A stretch of DNA of 10,972 nt from Kiritimatiellales bacterium. GTDB lineage: Bacteria > Verrucomicrobiota > Kiritimatiellia > Kiritimatiellales > Tichowtungiaceae. Position 1 is the first letter of the stretch. Every line of letters starts with the position of its first letter. Below the pieces are notes generated by a model. The model searched no databases and was not told where the DNA came from. It saw only the letters and a list, made by a program, of their open reading frames with translations. The stretch spans positions 1-10,972 of the forward strand of contig JAQUXG010000035.1 of the NCBI GenBank assembly GCA_028692515.1, written 5' to 3'. Of this stretch, positions 6,547-10,912 are shown piece by piece. A program made the translations under genes and the position numbers.

Positions 6547-7422
6547 ATGCCTGACTTGCCACTATTTGATGCGGACAAAATTGCCGCCACCATAGGCATG
6601 CGGACCTCGCTTACACCGACCGAATTATCCACGATTATTCAGGAACGGGATCTCGTTCTGGAACGGATCATTAACGGAACCAGCGATCTGCTGCCCTTCA
6701 GCTTTCTTGAAGAAGGTGTACGCGTCGGGCGGGCCGTCGTGCGAATCACTGTACGGGAAGATAAAGGACGCGGCCCGCAGGTTCTCGGCTACGGAACGGG
6801 CTTTATGGTTTCACCGCAGTTATTAATGACCAATGCCCACGTTTTCCCTTCTGCCGGTCTTTGCAAAGACAGCTTTGTGGAGTTTGATTTTGAATATGAT
6901 GCGTTAGGTAATGAAAAGGCCCCAGACAAGTGGCAGATCCGGCCGGATTTGTTTTTCATGTCCTCACCGCAGGCAGAGTTGGATTTTACAATTGTCGGAC
7001 TCGAAAAAAAGGAAGCCTGTGCAGGCGATCTCTACGGGCATATTGCTCTTCGAGAGAGCCCGGCTAAAGTTAAGCTGGGTGAGCATGTTAACCTGATTCA
7101 ACATCCTCAAGGCCGAAGAAAAGAAGTGGTGGTTCAGGAAAACAAAATCACCAATTTTTTCAAAGAAGGATTTTTACATTACACCGCCGATACCCTTAAG
7201 GGATCTTCCGGGTCTCCTGTTTTTAATAATCAATGGGATCTGGTCGCCCTGCATCATAGCGGCGTGATGAAAATGGACGCAAACGGCAAGCCGGTTATTT
7301 GTGATGGCGCGTGTGTTTTCATTGCGAATGAAGGCGTTCGGATCTCTTCGATTGCGGCCTTTCTGAAAAGCAATGTTCCTGCAGAGCAATATCAGGAATA
7401 TCTTGCCGCCTATTTGTGTTGA
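6547..7422 (+). CDS. Trypsin-like serine protease without signal peptide
   Basis: A 291-residue protein of the chymotrypsin/trypsin fold (Trypsin_2 or V8-like class). The catalytic triad is readable: H98 in M-T-N-A-H-V-F, D146 in E-L-D-F-T-I-V, and S221 in G-S-S-G-S-P. The beta-strand context G-Y-G-T-G-F-M-V-S and I-Q-H-P-Q-G also fits. The first ~60 residues are a polar, probably helical region (L-T-P-T-E-L-S near 22, L-L-P-F-S-F-L-E-E-G near 48) with no signal peptide or membrane helix, so the enzyme is probably cytoplasmic or delivered by another route. Such N-terminal regions occur in proteases recruited to bacterial conflict systems, but I cannot assign a named domain. The last residue is a cysteine. 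AAAAGGGG sits 9 bases before the ATG. The gene follows phoR by 55 bases with no terminator visible, and it converges on the radical SAM gene with only 20 bases between the stops. Codons look more AT-rich than in the pho genes. The substrate is unknown. Confidence 0.85.
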   Translation: MPDLPLFDADKIAATIGMRTSLTPTELSTIIQERDLVLERIINGTSDLLPFSFLEEGVRVGRAVVRITVREDKGRGPQVLGYGTGFMVSPQLLMTNAHVFPSAGLCKDSFVEFDFEYDALGNEKAPDKWQIRPDLFFMSSPQAELDFTIVGLEKKEACAGDLYGHIALRESPAKVKLGEHVNLIQHPQGRRKEVVVQENKITNFFKEGFLHYTADTLKGSSGSPVFNNQWDLVALHHSGVMKMDANGKPVICDGACVFIANEGVRISSIAAFLKSNVPAEQYQEYLAAYLC

Positions 7423-7442: not shown

Positions 7443-8789
7443 TTATTCTGAACCCACTGAGCTCGGGGCGTGTTGCATCCCGATGAATTTATCAGTAAAT
7501 GACCGGTATAAAACATCGCAAAGGTTGTCTTCCCGGCTCAGGCTGCCGAATGAATAATAGGCTCCTGCGCGGCATCCCCCGCCGCATAGCGCGACAAATT
7601 TACACGTTTTACATTTGCTGATTTGCGTGGCACTAATTCTCACCCGCCGTGCTTCTGCCCCATCAATAATCTCCCGGATACGGTTAACCATAATATTGCC
7701 TAGCTTGAGTTCTTTGGCAGCCAGCAGATGGCACGGGTATACGTCTCCGTTGTAATCAATGCTTATCAGGGTGCGGGCCATGCCGCATAGGAGTTTCGGC
7801 TCTCTGCGGCACGACGGCGTATGATCCGGCGTTGATTTTCCGGCAGGGGAGTGGCGGGTTGACGTTTCTGCCGCCAGGCGGAGATTGAGTTCTTTTAAGG
7901 CCTCATATGCCGCCATGTCGTTGATGGATAAGTCGCTGCGCTGGTCGTGCGCGCTCAATCGAAGATTGTTCGGGGAAAATTCAGCACCGATGGAGAGCGC
8001 AAACCGGGCTAAATCTTCGAGTTCATGCAGGTTTTTAGAGTGGATCGTGGGTGCCAAAGCCAACGGGATGCCGTGATTTCTCAACGAATGAATTCCCGCA
8101 AGGATCTTTGGCAGTGAACCTTTTCCGCGTGTAATAGCATTTGTACTTTCGGTGATGCCGTCGATGCTGACCTGAACTTTAGTCAGACGTTGATATGCGT
8201 CCAGCCTGCGAGCGATCCGGTCGGTAATCAACGTTCCGTTTGTTAAGATGGAAAAGCGAAGCTCCGATGCATCCAGCAGATCGAGATAGTCGAAGATCCG
8301 TCGGGTTAAAAACGGCTCTCCTCCCGTAATGATTATTTCGCAATCCGGATTGGTCGTCTTCACTTCATCGGTAATCCGGGCGAATACCGCCTCCTCCATA
8401 TCCATCGCACTTCGGCTCTCGAACGCCTGAAAGCAATACGGGCATTTCAGGTTACATCGCAATGTGATGGCCACATACGCAGCGTGAAGCGGTTTGGAGT
8501 CCGGTGGCTCCAGCGTTGTCCTGTTCCAGCCGTCCCGATCCAGTTTTTTCAGGAATGCGGCGGTTTTTTCGTGAGCAGTGGTTTCGTCGTAGTTGAGATC
8601 GATAAGGAAGCGTTCCAGTTTCCCCGTTTCCCCGCTTGAGGCGGACAACAGGATGAAAAGAAGACTCTCTTCCGCATGTAATATGCTCAGGGCTCCTATC
8701 GATGGATTGCTTAGCAAATATCCACCGCCACAGCGCTCAATCTGTTGCGCTGTTACGTTTCCTGGAGCTGTTTTTATGGCGGTAGGCAT
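7443..8789 (-). CDS. Radical SAM/SPASM peptide maturase
   Basis: A 448-residue radical S-adenosylmethionine enzyme, presumably modifying the small peptide encoded just upstream. Residues ~9-95 look like a winged-helix peptide-recognition (PqqD/RRE-like) region, including C-G-G-G-Y-L-L-S-N-P. The radical SAM core starts at ~104 with C112, C116 and C119 (CX3CX2C) for the catalytic iron-sulfur cluster, then G-G-E-P-F at 156-160 and a V-S-I-D-G motif near 207. The SPASM domain is complete: C335, then G348-x4-C353, then C393-x2-C396-x5-C402-x3-C406, then C424, enough for two auxiliary clusters. Related enzymes form thioether, carbon-carbon or similar crosslinks in peptides (sactipeptides, ranthipeptides, others); the reaction here cannot be told. 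The ATG at 8789 has only a weak CAGG site; a much better GGAGG lies 29 bases upstream. An anaerobic-maturase (sulfatase-activating) role is less likely, since no sulfatase is present and a precursor-like gene is adjacent. Confidence 0.9.
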   Translation of the reverse strand: MPTAIKTAPGNVTAQQIERCGGGYLLSNPSIGALSILHAEESLLFILLSASSGETGKLERFLIDLNYDETTAHEKTAAFLKKLDRDGWNRTTLEPPDSKPLHAAYVAITLRCNLKCPYCFQAFESRSAMDMEEAVFARITDEVKTTNPDCEIIITGGEPFLTRRIFDYLDLLDASELRFSILTNGTLITDRIARRLDAYQRLTKVQVSIDGITESTNAITRGKGSLPKILAGIHSLRNHGIPLALAPTIHSKNLHELEDLARFALSIGAEFSPNNLRLSAHDQRSDLSINDMAAYEALKELNLRLAAETSTRHSPAGKSTPDHTPSCRREPKLLCGMARTLISIDYNGDVYPCHLLAAKELKLGNIMVNRIREIIDGAEARRVRISATQISKCKTCKFVALCGGGCRAGAYYSFGSLSREDNLCDVLYRSFTDKFIGMQHAPSSVGSE

Positions 8790-8843
8790 ATCAAAACCTG
8801 ACGCGCGGATGACGTTCGCCTCCGTGCTTGCTCATATAGATTA

Positions 8844-8881
8844 AAAAACCGTGCATCGACGGGGTCGATTGCACGGTTTTT
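8844..8881 (-). terminator. Hairpin with T-tract between precursor and maturase
   Basis: A 12-base perfect stem (AAAAACCGTGCA at 8844-8855 with TGCACGGTTTTT at 8870-8881) continues after a single bulged T into a 4-base TCGA/TCGA stem around a CGGGG loop. Read on the minus strand it starts 15 bases after the precursor stop and ends in a run of T, so it has the form of an intrinsic terminator. Because the maturase gene follows with no obvious promoter, it probably lets only part of transcription through, giving more precursor than enzyme. The symmetric A/T flanks mean it could also act on the opposite strand. Confidence 0.82.
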
Positions 8882-8896
8882 CACGATGCGGGTTAG

Positions 8897-9139
8897 TTAC
8901 ACATCTTTGCCTAAGGTGTACCCGATACACGCATTTATTAACGGGATGCCCGGACAGACTGTCCCGCACACCTGTCCCGCCTCCTCCGCAGAAGGAATGA
9001 TTGCTTCGCCGATTTTAACTTCATCGGTAGCGACCCCGAGTTTTTTGAGGGTTGCCGCAGGGTTCGCAGCAAATTCCTTCGTTAATTTCACGTCGGAATA
9101 TACCTGTCGAATAGCACGATCTAGACTCTGATCACTCAT
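8897..9139 (-). CDS. Candidate RiPP precursor peptide (three-cysteine tail)
   Basis: An 80-residue peptide encoded immediately before the radical SAM maturase. Residues 1-45 are a charged, helix-forming leader-like part (L-D-R-A-I-R-Q-V-Y, then F-A-A-N-P-A-A-T-L-K-K-L-G-V). Its pattern is reminiscent of NHLP/Nif11-type or similar RiPP leaders ending in a 'dP..al..lG' helix, but I do not recognise the exact family. Residues ~50-80 are small, hydrophobic and glycine-rich with cysteines 58, 62 and 71 (C-G-T-V-C-P-G-I-P, then N-A-C-I-G-Y), a plausible core for crosslinking. There is no clear double-glycine cleavage site. AAGGAG lies 9 bases before the ATG, a strong site fitting high expression. 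A hairpin terminator follows the stop. Identity as a precursor is inferred from size, composition and the adjacent maturase. Confidence 0.8.
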   Translation of the reverse strand: MSDQSLDRAIRQVYSDVKLTKEFAANPAATLKKLGVATDEVKIGEAIIPSAEEAGQVCGTVCPGIPLINACIGYTLGKDV

Positions 9140-9290
9140 ACTGTTCCACTCCTTTCCTGTCTTGTTTTCTCCTGACCCGGTTCTTCTATTTTAAAAATCA
9201 GTTTCGTGCAAGAATTTTACGCAAAAATATTTAGTACCATTATATTTTTTTTCTTTTCACGTCCGGCGGTTTGCGGTCACTCTTCCCGCC
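9140..9290. promoter_or_regulatory. AT-rich divergent intergenic region with candidate promoter
   Basis: This 151-base gap separates the minus-strand precursor from plus-strand comF, so promoters for both should lie here. It is strikingly AT-rich compared with the flanking genes. On the minus strand, TATAAT occurs at 9239-9244, a possible -10 element that would leave a leader of about 90 bases before the precursor; no good -35 element is seen. On the plus strand, TATATT at 9241-9246 overlaps it. The precursor ribosome-binding site (AAGGAG) is near 9149-9154. These assignments are weak because sigma-factor consensus in the host is unknown. Confidence 0.4.
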
Positions 9291-9986
9291 ATGTCCGACA
9301 TGCTCTATCCTCGCAACTGCCTTCAGTGCGGCGTGTCATCGCCGGAACCTTTCCGGCATATCTGCTGGGACTGTTTTTCTGATACACCAAAGATCGAGGC
9401 CCCGTTTTGCGCGCTCTGCGGCGATCCGGTCGCCGGATCGATCCAGCACGACTACATCTGCTTTGCCTGCGCCCGCGAAAAACCCGCATTTGAGCGGGCC
9501 CGTTCAGCAGTTCGCTATGAAGGGGCCGTGGGAAATGCCGTTCGTGACCTTAAATACAAGCACGCCCTGTGGCTGGTGAGAGATATGGCTGAGCTCCTGT
9601 TCAACTGCCTGCAGGCGGAATATCCGGAGATCCTGTTCGATCAGATTACCGCGGTGCCGCTTCATCCACCGCGTCGCCGCGAGCGGGGATTTAACCAGTC
9701 GGCGGTTCTTGGCGCGGCGCTGGCCCGGCGGCTGGAGCTCCCGTTTAGTGAGAGACTGCTGCGCCGTGTCCGCCCAACCGTCAGCCAAACGGGTTTGACA
9801 GCGCCGCAACGTGCGGCTAACGTGTGCGGCGCTTTTCGAGTCGGGTGGTTTGCCCGTCCAGCGGGGCGAAGAATTTTACTGGTTGATGATGTAATGACCA
9901 CCGGAGCCACGGTTAATGCCTGTGCAAAGACTCTGAAACAGGCCGGGGCGGTATCCGTGCATGTGATAACGGTGGCGAGAGGATGA
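9291..9986 (+). CDS. comF: ComF-family phosphoribosyltransferase-like protein
   Basis: A 231-residue protein of the ComF/GntX family. The N-terminus has paired cysteines C10-C13, C25-C28, C40-C43 and C57-C60, suitable for binding two zinc ions. The C-terminal half is a type I phosphoribosyltransferase fold: A-V-P-L-H-P-P-R-R-R-E-R-G-F-N-Q-S near 121-137 and the PRPP-binding loop I-L-L-V-D-D-V-M-T-T-G-A-T near 195-207. In naturally transformable bacteria ComF helps bring incoming single-stranded DNA into recombination; in others the role is unclear. The start could be the ATG at 9291 or the in-frame ATG at 9300, where the protein would begin M-L-Y-P-R-N-C, the more usual ComF beginning. Neither has a good ribosome-binding site. 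accD follows 74 bases later. Confidence 0.9.
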   Translation: MSDMLYPRNCLQCGVSSPEPFRHICWDCFSDTPKIEAPFCALCGDPVAGSIQHDYICFACAREKPAFERARSAVRYEGAVGNAVRDLKYKHALWLVRDMAELLFNCLQAEYPEILFDQITAVPLHPPRRRERGFNQSAVLGAALARRLELPFSERLLRRVRPTVSQTGLTAPQRAANVCGAFRVGWFARPAGRRILLVDDVMTTGATVNACAKTLKQAGAVSVHVITVARG

Positions 9987-10060: not shown

Positions 10061-10912
10061 ATGGCTTTACGATTCGGTAAGAAAAAATATTCGACGGTTC
10101 AGGTTCGCAAACGGGATGTTCCGGATGGTCTATGGGAAAAATGCCCCGGCTGCGGCGAAATCCTCTATGCCAAAGAACTTGAGGCCAGCCTGCAGGTTTG
10201 CCCCAAATGCGACTTCCATTTTCCGTTGGCGCGGCAAAAGCGTATCGACATGTTTGCCGATGAAGGCACCTTTGTTGAATGGGATGCCGACATGATCTCC
10301 TCCGATCCGCTCGGCTTCACCGGTAAAGACTCCTATGTCGCCAAACTCGAAGCCAACCAGAAAAAGACCGGCTTCAAAGATGCCGTCACCTGCGGCGCCG
10401 CCAAAATGAGCGGACGCGACATTGGTCTCGGCGTAATGGACTTCTCCTTCCTTGGTGCCAGTATGGGCAGCGTCGTCGGTGAAAAAATCACCCGACTCAT
10501 TGAGCGCTGCACCGCTGAAAAACGTCCCTGTGTTCTGATCTGCGCCTCCGGCGGCGCCCGCATGTACGAAGGCCTCTACAGCCTCATGCAGATGGCCAAA
10601 ACCAGCGCCGCGCTCGCTCGCCATGCCAAAGCCGGCCTTCCGTATATTCCCGTTTTGACCCATCCGACAATGGCCGGCGTCATGGCCAGCTTCGCCACGC
10701 TCGGCGATGTCATCGTTGCCGAACCCGGCGCACTCATCGGTTTTGCCGGCCCGCGCGTTATCAAAGAAACCACGCAGCAGGATCTGCCCGAAGGCTTTCA
10801 GCGCGCCGAATTCCTTGAAAAACACGGCCTCATCGACATGGTCGTCCCGCGCCCGCAGCTCAAAGCCCGTCTGGTTCTGGTCCTCGACTACATGACCGAC
10901 AATGCTCAATAA
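10061..10912 (+). CDS. accD: Acetyl-CoA carboxylase carboxyltransferase subunit beta
   Basis: With AccA this subunit transfers the carboxyl group from biotin-carrier protein to acetyl-CoA, giving malonyl-CoA for fatty acid synthesis in the cytoplasm. The 283 residues match the family length. The N-terminal zinc ribbon is complete (C28, C31, C47, C50; C-P-G-C and C-P-K-C). The crotonase-like domain shows G-A-S-M-G-S-V-V-G-E-K near 132-142, A-S-G-G-A-R-M at 162-168, H-P-T-M-A-G-V near 201, and A-L-I-G-F-A-G-P-R-V-I near 224-234, where the subunit helps form the acetyl-CoA and biotin sites with AccA. GAGG lies 5 bases before the ATG. accA is not in the window. Confidence 0.97.
   Translation: MALRFGKKKYSTVQVRKRDVPDGLWEKCPGCGEILYAKELEASLQVCPKCDFHFPLARQKRIDMFADEGTFVEWDADMISSDPLGFTGKDSYVAKLEANQKKTGFKDAVTCGAAKMSGRDIGLGVMDFSFLGASMGSVVGEKITRLIERCTAEKRPCVLICASGGARMYEGLYSLMQMAKTSAALARHAKAGLPYIPVLTHPTMAGVMASFATLGDVIVAEPGALIGFAGPRVIKETTQQDLPEGFQRAEFLEKHGLIDMVVPRPQLKARLVLVLDYMTDNAQ

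Follow-up and report, generated by a model that had tools for sequence, protein, structure and literature searches.

A consensus table for motif 1 of the nitrile-hydratase-leader (NHLP) peptides has been published (available part of PMC2887384). In the TIGR04064 systems, as set out in the available part of PMC3023750, a leader segment of this kind is combined with a cysteine-bearing tail and one adjoining radical S-adenosylmethionine (SAM) enzyme. A comparable arrangement, with a leader segment that may correspond to motif 1, is found on contig JAQUXG010000035.1 of a Kiritimatiellales bacterium, where an 80-residue open reading frame (ORF) lies upstream of a gene for a radical SAM/SPASM enzyme. 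The window analysed is this entire contig (C131; 10,972 bases), which belongs to an 86% complete draft genome totalling 1.81 Mb over 288 contigs. Compared with the TIGR04064 systems, the leader at this locus is shorter, scores below the NHLP cut-offs and lacks Gly-Gly, no ATP-binding cassette (ABC) transporter is seen, and the enzyme reaches 70 bits against the TIGR04064 cut-off of 518.7. We put at roughly three in four the probability that the 80-residue peptide and the enzyme are the precursor and maturase of a ribosomally synthesized and post-translationally modified peptide (RiPP). This is the best reading of the gene order, strand, intervening terminator, ten cluster cysteines, marginal RiPP recognition element (RRE), leader-like half and cysteine-bearing tail. 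The locus would then be a minimal precursor-maturase pair whose leader lies at the limit of what NHLP models detect. It is likely an orphan addition to the known radical SAM peptide systems, as none of the collections searched yielded a close relative of the precursor. If the peptide is modified, NHLP models would miss short, Gly-Gly-less relatives, and the locus would provide a compact two-gene system, easy to express, in which to study cross-linking chemistry.

The putative precursor gene and its leader-like half

The genes, signals, domains and cysteines reported here are read directly from the sequence. The bases preceding the precursor start are GGAAAGGAGTGGAACAGT, followed by ATG, and the precursor frame has the top codon score among the six frames over its span, while an 81-residue ORF read from the other strand has a per-codon score of -0.29. 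On these three counts, the ribosome-binding site, the top-scoring frame and the opposite-strand score, a chance ORF was rejected; the 80-residue ORF is a probable gene. The gap between precursor and enzyme holds a hairpin with a folding energy of -25.2 kcal/mol (z -6.9; 0/200 shuffles as good) that is followed by a T run. A preliminary description of this DNA had proposed an 80-residue ORF with a strong ribosome-binding site upstream of a radical SAM/SPASM enzyme, with a terminator between the two genes, and both proposals were confirmed on the minus strand. The hairpin was absent from the output of the generic terminator scan, which also yielded no sigma-70-type promoter.

The first half of the precursor is leader-like, and residues 10-26 (IRQVYSDVKLTKEFAAN) resemble NHLP motif 1 as tabulated in the available part of PMC2887384. 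The precursor's score is equalled by 29/5000 shuffles against the NHLP consensus of this motif and by 153/5000 against the NHLP-Burk consensus; when four motif consensuses are taken jointly, the figure is 70/5000. Three NCBIfam models matched the precursor below their cut-offs, and all three belong to the NHLP clan: TIGR03793 (E 0.03, positions 7-38 in register; 14.2 bits against a cut-off of 50.9), NF038399 (E 0.14) and TIGR04509 (E 0.18). As a control, nine shuffles of the precursor and the opposite-strand ORF matched no NCBIfam model. Over 97 relatives, TIGR03793 gave weak matches in 7 genomes; all of them stayed under the cut-off, and the precursor was not among them. The tail carries cysteines C58, C62 and C71. 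There is no GG anywhere in the precursor that could serve as a Gly-Gly cleavage site. Splicease and poly-cyclopropylglycine chemistry, for which the available part of PMC11002830 gives an Xaa-Tyr-Gly motif and Thr-Val-Gly-Gly repeats, respectively, were rejected, the precursor containing neither YG nor GG. Membership in a phage family was likewise rejected, with no PHROG match. The predicted precursor fold has a mean predicted local distance difference test score (pLDDT) of 54.7, which is too poor for a fold search to be useful.

The enzyme and described maturases

The enzyme matches PF04055 (E 2.1e-23) and the SPASM family PF13186 (E 2.7e-11), both above curated cut-offs. Its radical SAM cysteines are C112, C116 and C119 (CxxxCxxC), and counting by the SPASM cysteine spacing pattern gives C335, C353, C393, C396, C402, C406 and C424, so that all ten cluster cysteines expected from the preliminary description are present (10/10). 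By Pfam and by these ten cysteines, the predicted protein is assigned to the radical SAM/SPASM family. Its first ATG has a weak ribosome-binding site of its own; upstream, within window positions 8790-8825, an in-frame ATC codon is preceded, at a distance of 8 bases, by a good Shine-Dalgarno-like GGAGG. The enzyme start may be misplaced, or a rare start codon may be used.

Of six distant relatives scanned, three (L003, L043 and L047) have PqqD at the N-terminus. Residues 21-97 of the enzyme align co-linearly with the PqqD-bearing L003 at 8.9 bits, a score reached by 0/300 shuffles (252 of the 300 gave a reported score, the best being 6.4 bits), and the N-terminal ~95 residues are thus marginally RRE-like. 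In class relative G087 (L003 1438-3461), the gene for a PqqD-radical SAM-SPASM protein precedes one for a PqqD-domain protein, with another radical SAM match further downstream.

It is conceivable that the enzyme acts on another protein, for instance in the manner of a sulfatase maturase, and that the 80-residue ORF encodes an unrelated small protein lying upstream by chance. Against the anaerobic sulfatase-maturating enzyme (AnSME) model TIGR03942 (sulfatase_rSAM), however, the enzyme scores 97 bits for a cut-off of 349, and it differs from AnSME in the extra ~95 N-terminal residues, which align with PqqD-bearing relatives. A leader-like half and cysteine-bearing tail are encoded directly upstream, and both genes share a low GC content at third codon positions (GC3). 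We therefore regard this alternative as improbable, and the enzyme is likely the precursor's putative sole maturase.

Among described maturases, the best fold match is the thioether-forming enzyme CteB, with 18% identity across the aligned part, in a search that barely tested model residues 1-92. The enzyme falls short of the cut-offs for the ranthipeptide/sactipeptide maturases StsB (160/625 bits) and PapB (109/340 bits), and no relative of the three-cysteine precursor was found among the precursors of the CteB, StsB and PapB families.

Distribution of the putative precursor and the case for a pair

Precursor homologues were confined to its own genome, both among the 97 relatives (1/97) and among 387 phylum genomes (1/387), two samples that overlap. 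Of 345 class genomes, 26 matched at E <= 0.1 including its own, the only one at E < 0.01. The remaining 25 have E values of 0.013-0.097. Nine of them were inspected: two contain internal stops, two fall within reading frames 591 and 602 residues long, and five sit inside ORFs that we take to encode type III pantothenate kinase (three), tryptophan synthase alpha (one) and ribosomal protein uS11 (one). These 9/25 matches were taken as chance. The precursor had no match in 72,556 plasmid records, 50,697 phage records or viral contigs, nor among 9,289 ORFs of the compared loci (best E 1.3). Because no homologue was found, proof by conserved co-occurrence was unobtainable; for the same reason, no homologues without a radical SAM neighbour, which the preliminary description had named as grounds for refutation, came to light.

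Several results weigh against a precursor-maturase pair. There is no precursor homologue and hence no conserved precursor-enzyme pairing. Scores to the NHLP models lie under every cut-off, and the NHase and lichenicidin consensuses fit the precursor no better than chance (2912/5000 and 1158/5000 shuffles as good, respectively). The precursor was not among the matches in the TIGR03793 genome search. The C39 peptidase PF03412 was not found in its own genome (0/1; 86% complete), TIGR03796 and TIGR03797 not being searched for. No Pfam RRE model matched the enzyme N-terminus, for which hhalign gave a probability of about 1%, and no NCBIfam maturase model reached its cut-off for the enzyme among the 25 matches listed. 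No exporter is encoded on the contig, so the earlier statement that none lies nearby holds for the whole window.

Three claims of the preliminary description accordingly stand in part. The precursor is unfamiliar in that no homologue was found, but its first half is weakly NHLP-like, below all cut-offs. An RRE-like N-terminus is marginally favoured by the co-linear similarity to L003, but not by Pfam or hhalign. A RiPP-like pair is still the best reading, although the searches found the precursor, and hence the pairing, in one genome only.

For such a pair we infer the pairing, binding, chemistry, leader removal and role as follows. Because the terminator follows the precursor gene, the hairpin would cause the 80-residue peptide to be produced in excess. 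The helical, NHLP-like leader half would be bound by the RRE-like N-terminus. SAM would be cleaved at the CxxxCxxC cluster and a hydrogen abstracted from the peptide tail, and the SPASM clusters would help to form cross-links from C58, C62 and C71, with thioethers as the leading, if tentative, candidate. A protease would then cut off the leader, and the trypsin-like enzyme encoded next to the pair may be that protease.

Genomic setting and the adjacent protease

The features of the locus are listed in Table 1. The gene order in the window is phosphate transport system, PhoU, PhoB/PhoR-like regulator pair, protease, enzyme, precursor, ComF-like and AccD-like genes. PhoU and the response regulator were assigned by Pfam, and the names phosphate transporter, PhoR, ComF and AccD are our presumptive assignments from reading the sequences. 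The window has no Rfam match to a structured RNA.

Table 1. Coordinates of the putative precursor, the enzyme and adjacent features in the window
Feature	Position	Strand	Basis
80-residue putative RiPP precursor	8897-9139	-	ORF call, codon score, NHLP-clan model matches
Precursor ribosome-binding site region (GGAAAGGAG, then start)	9140-9157	-	Read from sequence
Terminator-like hairpin and T run, precursor/enzyme gap	8842-8884	-	Folding z -6.9; stem readable on both strands
Radical SAM/SPASM enzyme, 448 aa, putative sole maturase	7443-8789	-	Pfam, ten cluster cysteines
Trypsin-like protease, 291 aa, convergent with enzyme	6547-7422	+	PF13365
ComF-like phosphoribosyltransferase	9291-9986	+	Phosphoribosyltransferase by Pfam
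AccD-like carboxyltransferase	10061-10912	+	Carboxyltransferase by Pfam

GC3 is 0.50 in the precursor, 0.565 in the enzyme and 0.495 in the protease, and 0.63-0.67 in the seven other window genes. Codon scores, initially trained on those seven core genes themselves, are 0.050 for precursor and enzyme and 0.153 for the protease; with leave-one-out scoring, six of the seven reach 0.23-0.35 and the ComF-like gene 0.047. GC3 thus separates precursor, enzyme and protease from the other genes better than the codon score does, and codon usage was set aside as weak proof of foreign origin, the ComF-like gene resembling precursor and enzyme. ComF and PhoR each occur in 13/14 genus genomes, own included. 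In 12 genus mates, the 4.4-11 kb stretches around comF lack phoR, protease, enzyme and precursor, and 12 phoR loci of 2.9-4.8 kb lack comF and the same three genes. About 150 kb separates comF from phoR in G007 and about 367 kb in G009, and precursor, enzyme and protease thus occupy a junction unseen in these mates. An empty site was unobtainable, since none of the stretches fetched from genus mates holds comF next to phoR. Precursor, enzyme and protease may form one island that was acquired together.

The flanking of this stretch by PhoR and ComF, so distant in those mates, on a contig of only 10,972 bases and in a genome of 288 contigs, would also fit a misjoin in the draft bin, or a decaying remnant that has lost its exporter. 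Yet all three frames are open, the enzyme retains its full cysteine set, and the comF context differs among the genus mates as well, which makes a real rearrangement plausible; we consider an artefact or remnant improbable.

The protease was left unmentioned in the preliminary description, although it has the low GC3 of the precursor-maturase pair and is likewise unfound in genus mates. It carries a Trypsin_2 domain, in which we take the motifs NAHV, LDFT and GSSGSP to hold the catalytic His, Asp and Ser, and it occurs in 1/45 relatives (its own) and in 2/345 class genomes, own included. Its adjacency, convergent orientation, composition and rarity would suit a three-gene system, with the peptide either being matured by the protease or acting as its inhibitor. 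The gene lies on the opposite strand, however, and its best plasmid relatives (40-44% identical) lie, in the 3/83 records inspected, within proteins of about 600-660 residues, one of them annotated as a DNA/RNA non-specific endonuclease. The stretches displayed for these three records contain no radical SAM gene; the family is therefore not habitually a RiPP protease. The sole other class match, L190, also lacks a radical SAM gene in its 3.6 kb. A protease partner is accordingly an unlikely reading, and a link to the pair is possible from position, composition and distribution. It is a long shot that the three genes form an island with a Gly-Gly-less, NHLP-derived leader, one radical SAM/SPASM cross-linker and a protease that matures or is controlled by the peptide, acting as an intracellular switch and not as an exported antibiotic.

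PADLOC gave no match for the precursor, generic radical SAM matches for the enzyme (pVip, E 6e-21) and RT-Protease_XI for the protease (E 6e-10). These were taken as shared domains, and a defence system was rejected.

Two of the compared loci also place small ORFs beside radical SAM genes. What looks like a peptide-maturation cluster lies at L100 3935-9122 (C. difficile plasmid p_TW11), where a pair of radical SAM genes stands in a row with a small gene of 180 bases and genes for an S8 peptidase and an ABC transporter. At L022 7986-13164 (a Bacilli metagenome-assembled genome), a 74-residue ORF ending in GGNYCSDTC overlaps the end of the second of two adjacent radical SAM genes; next come what read as an aminotransferase-like gene and a further radical SAM-like ORF.
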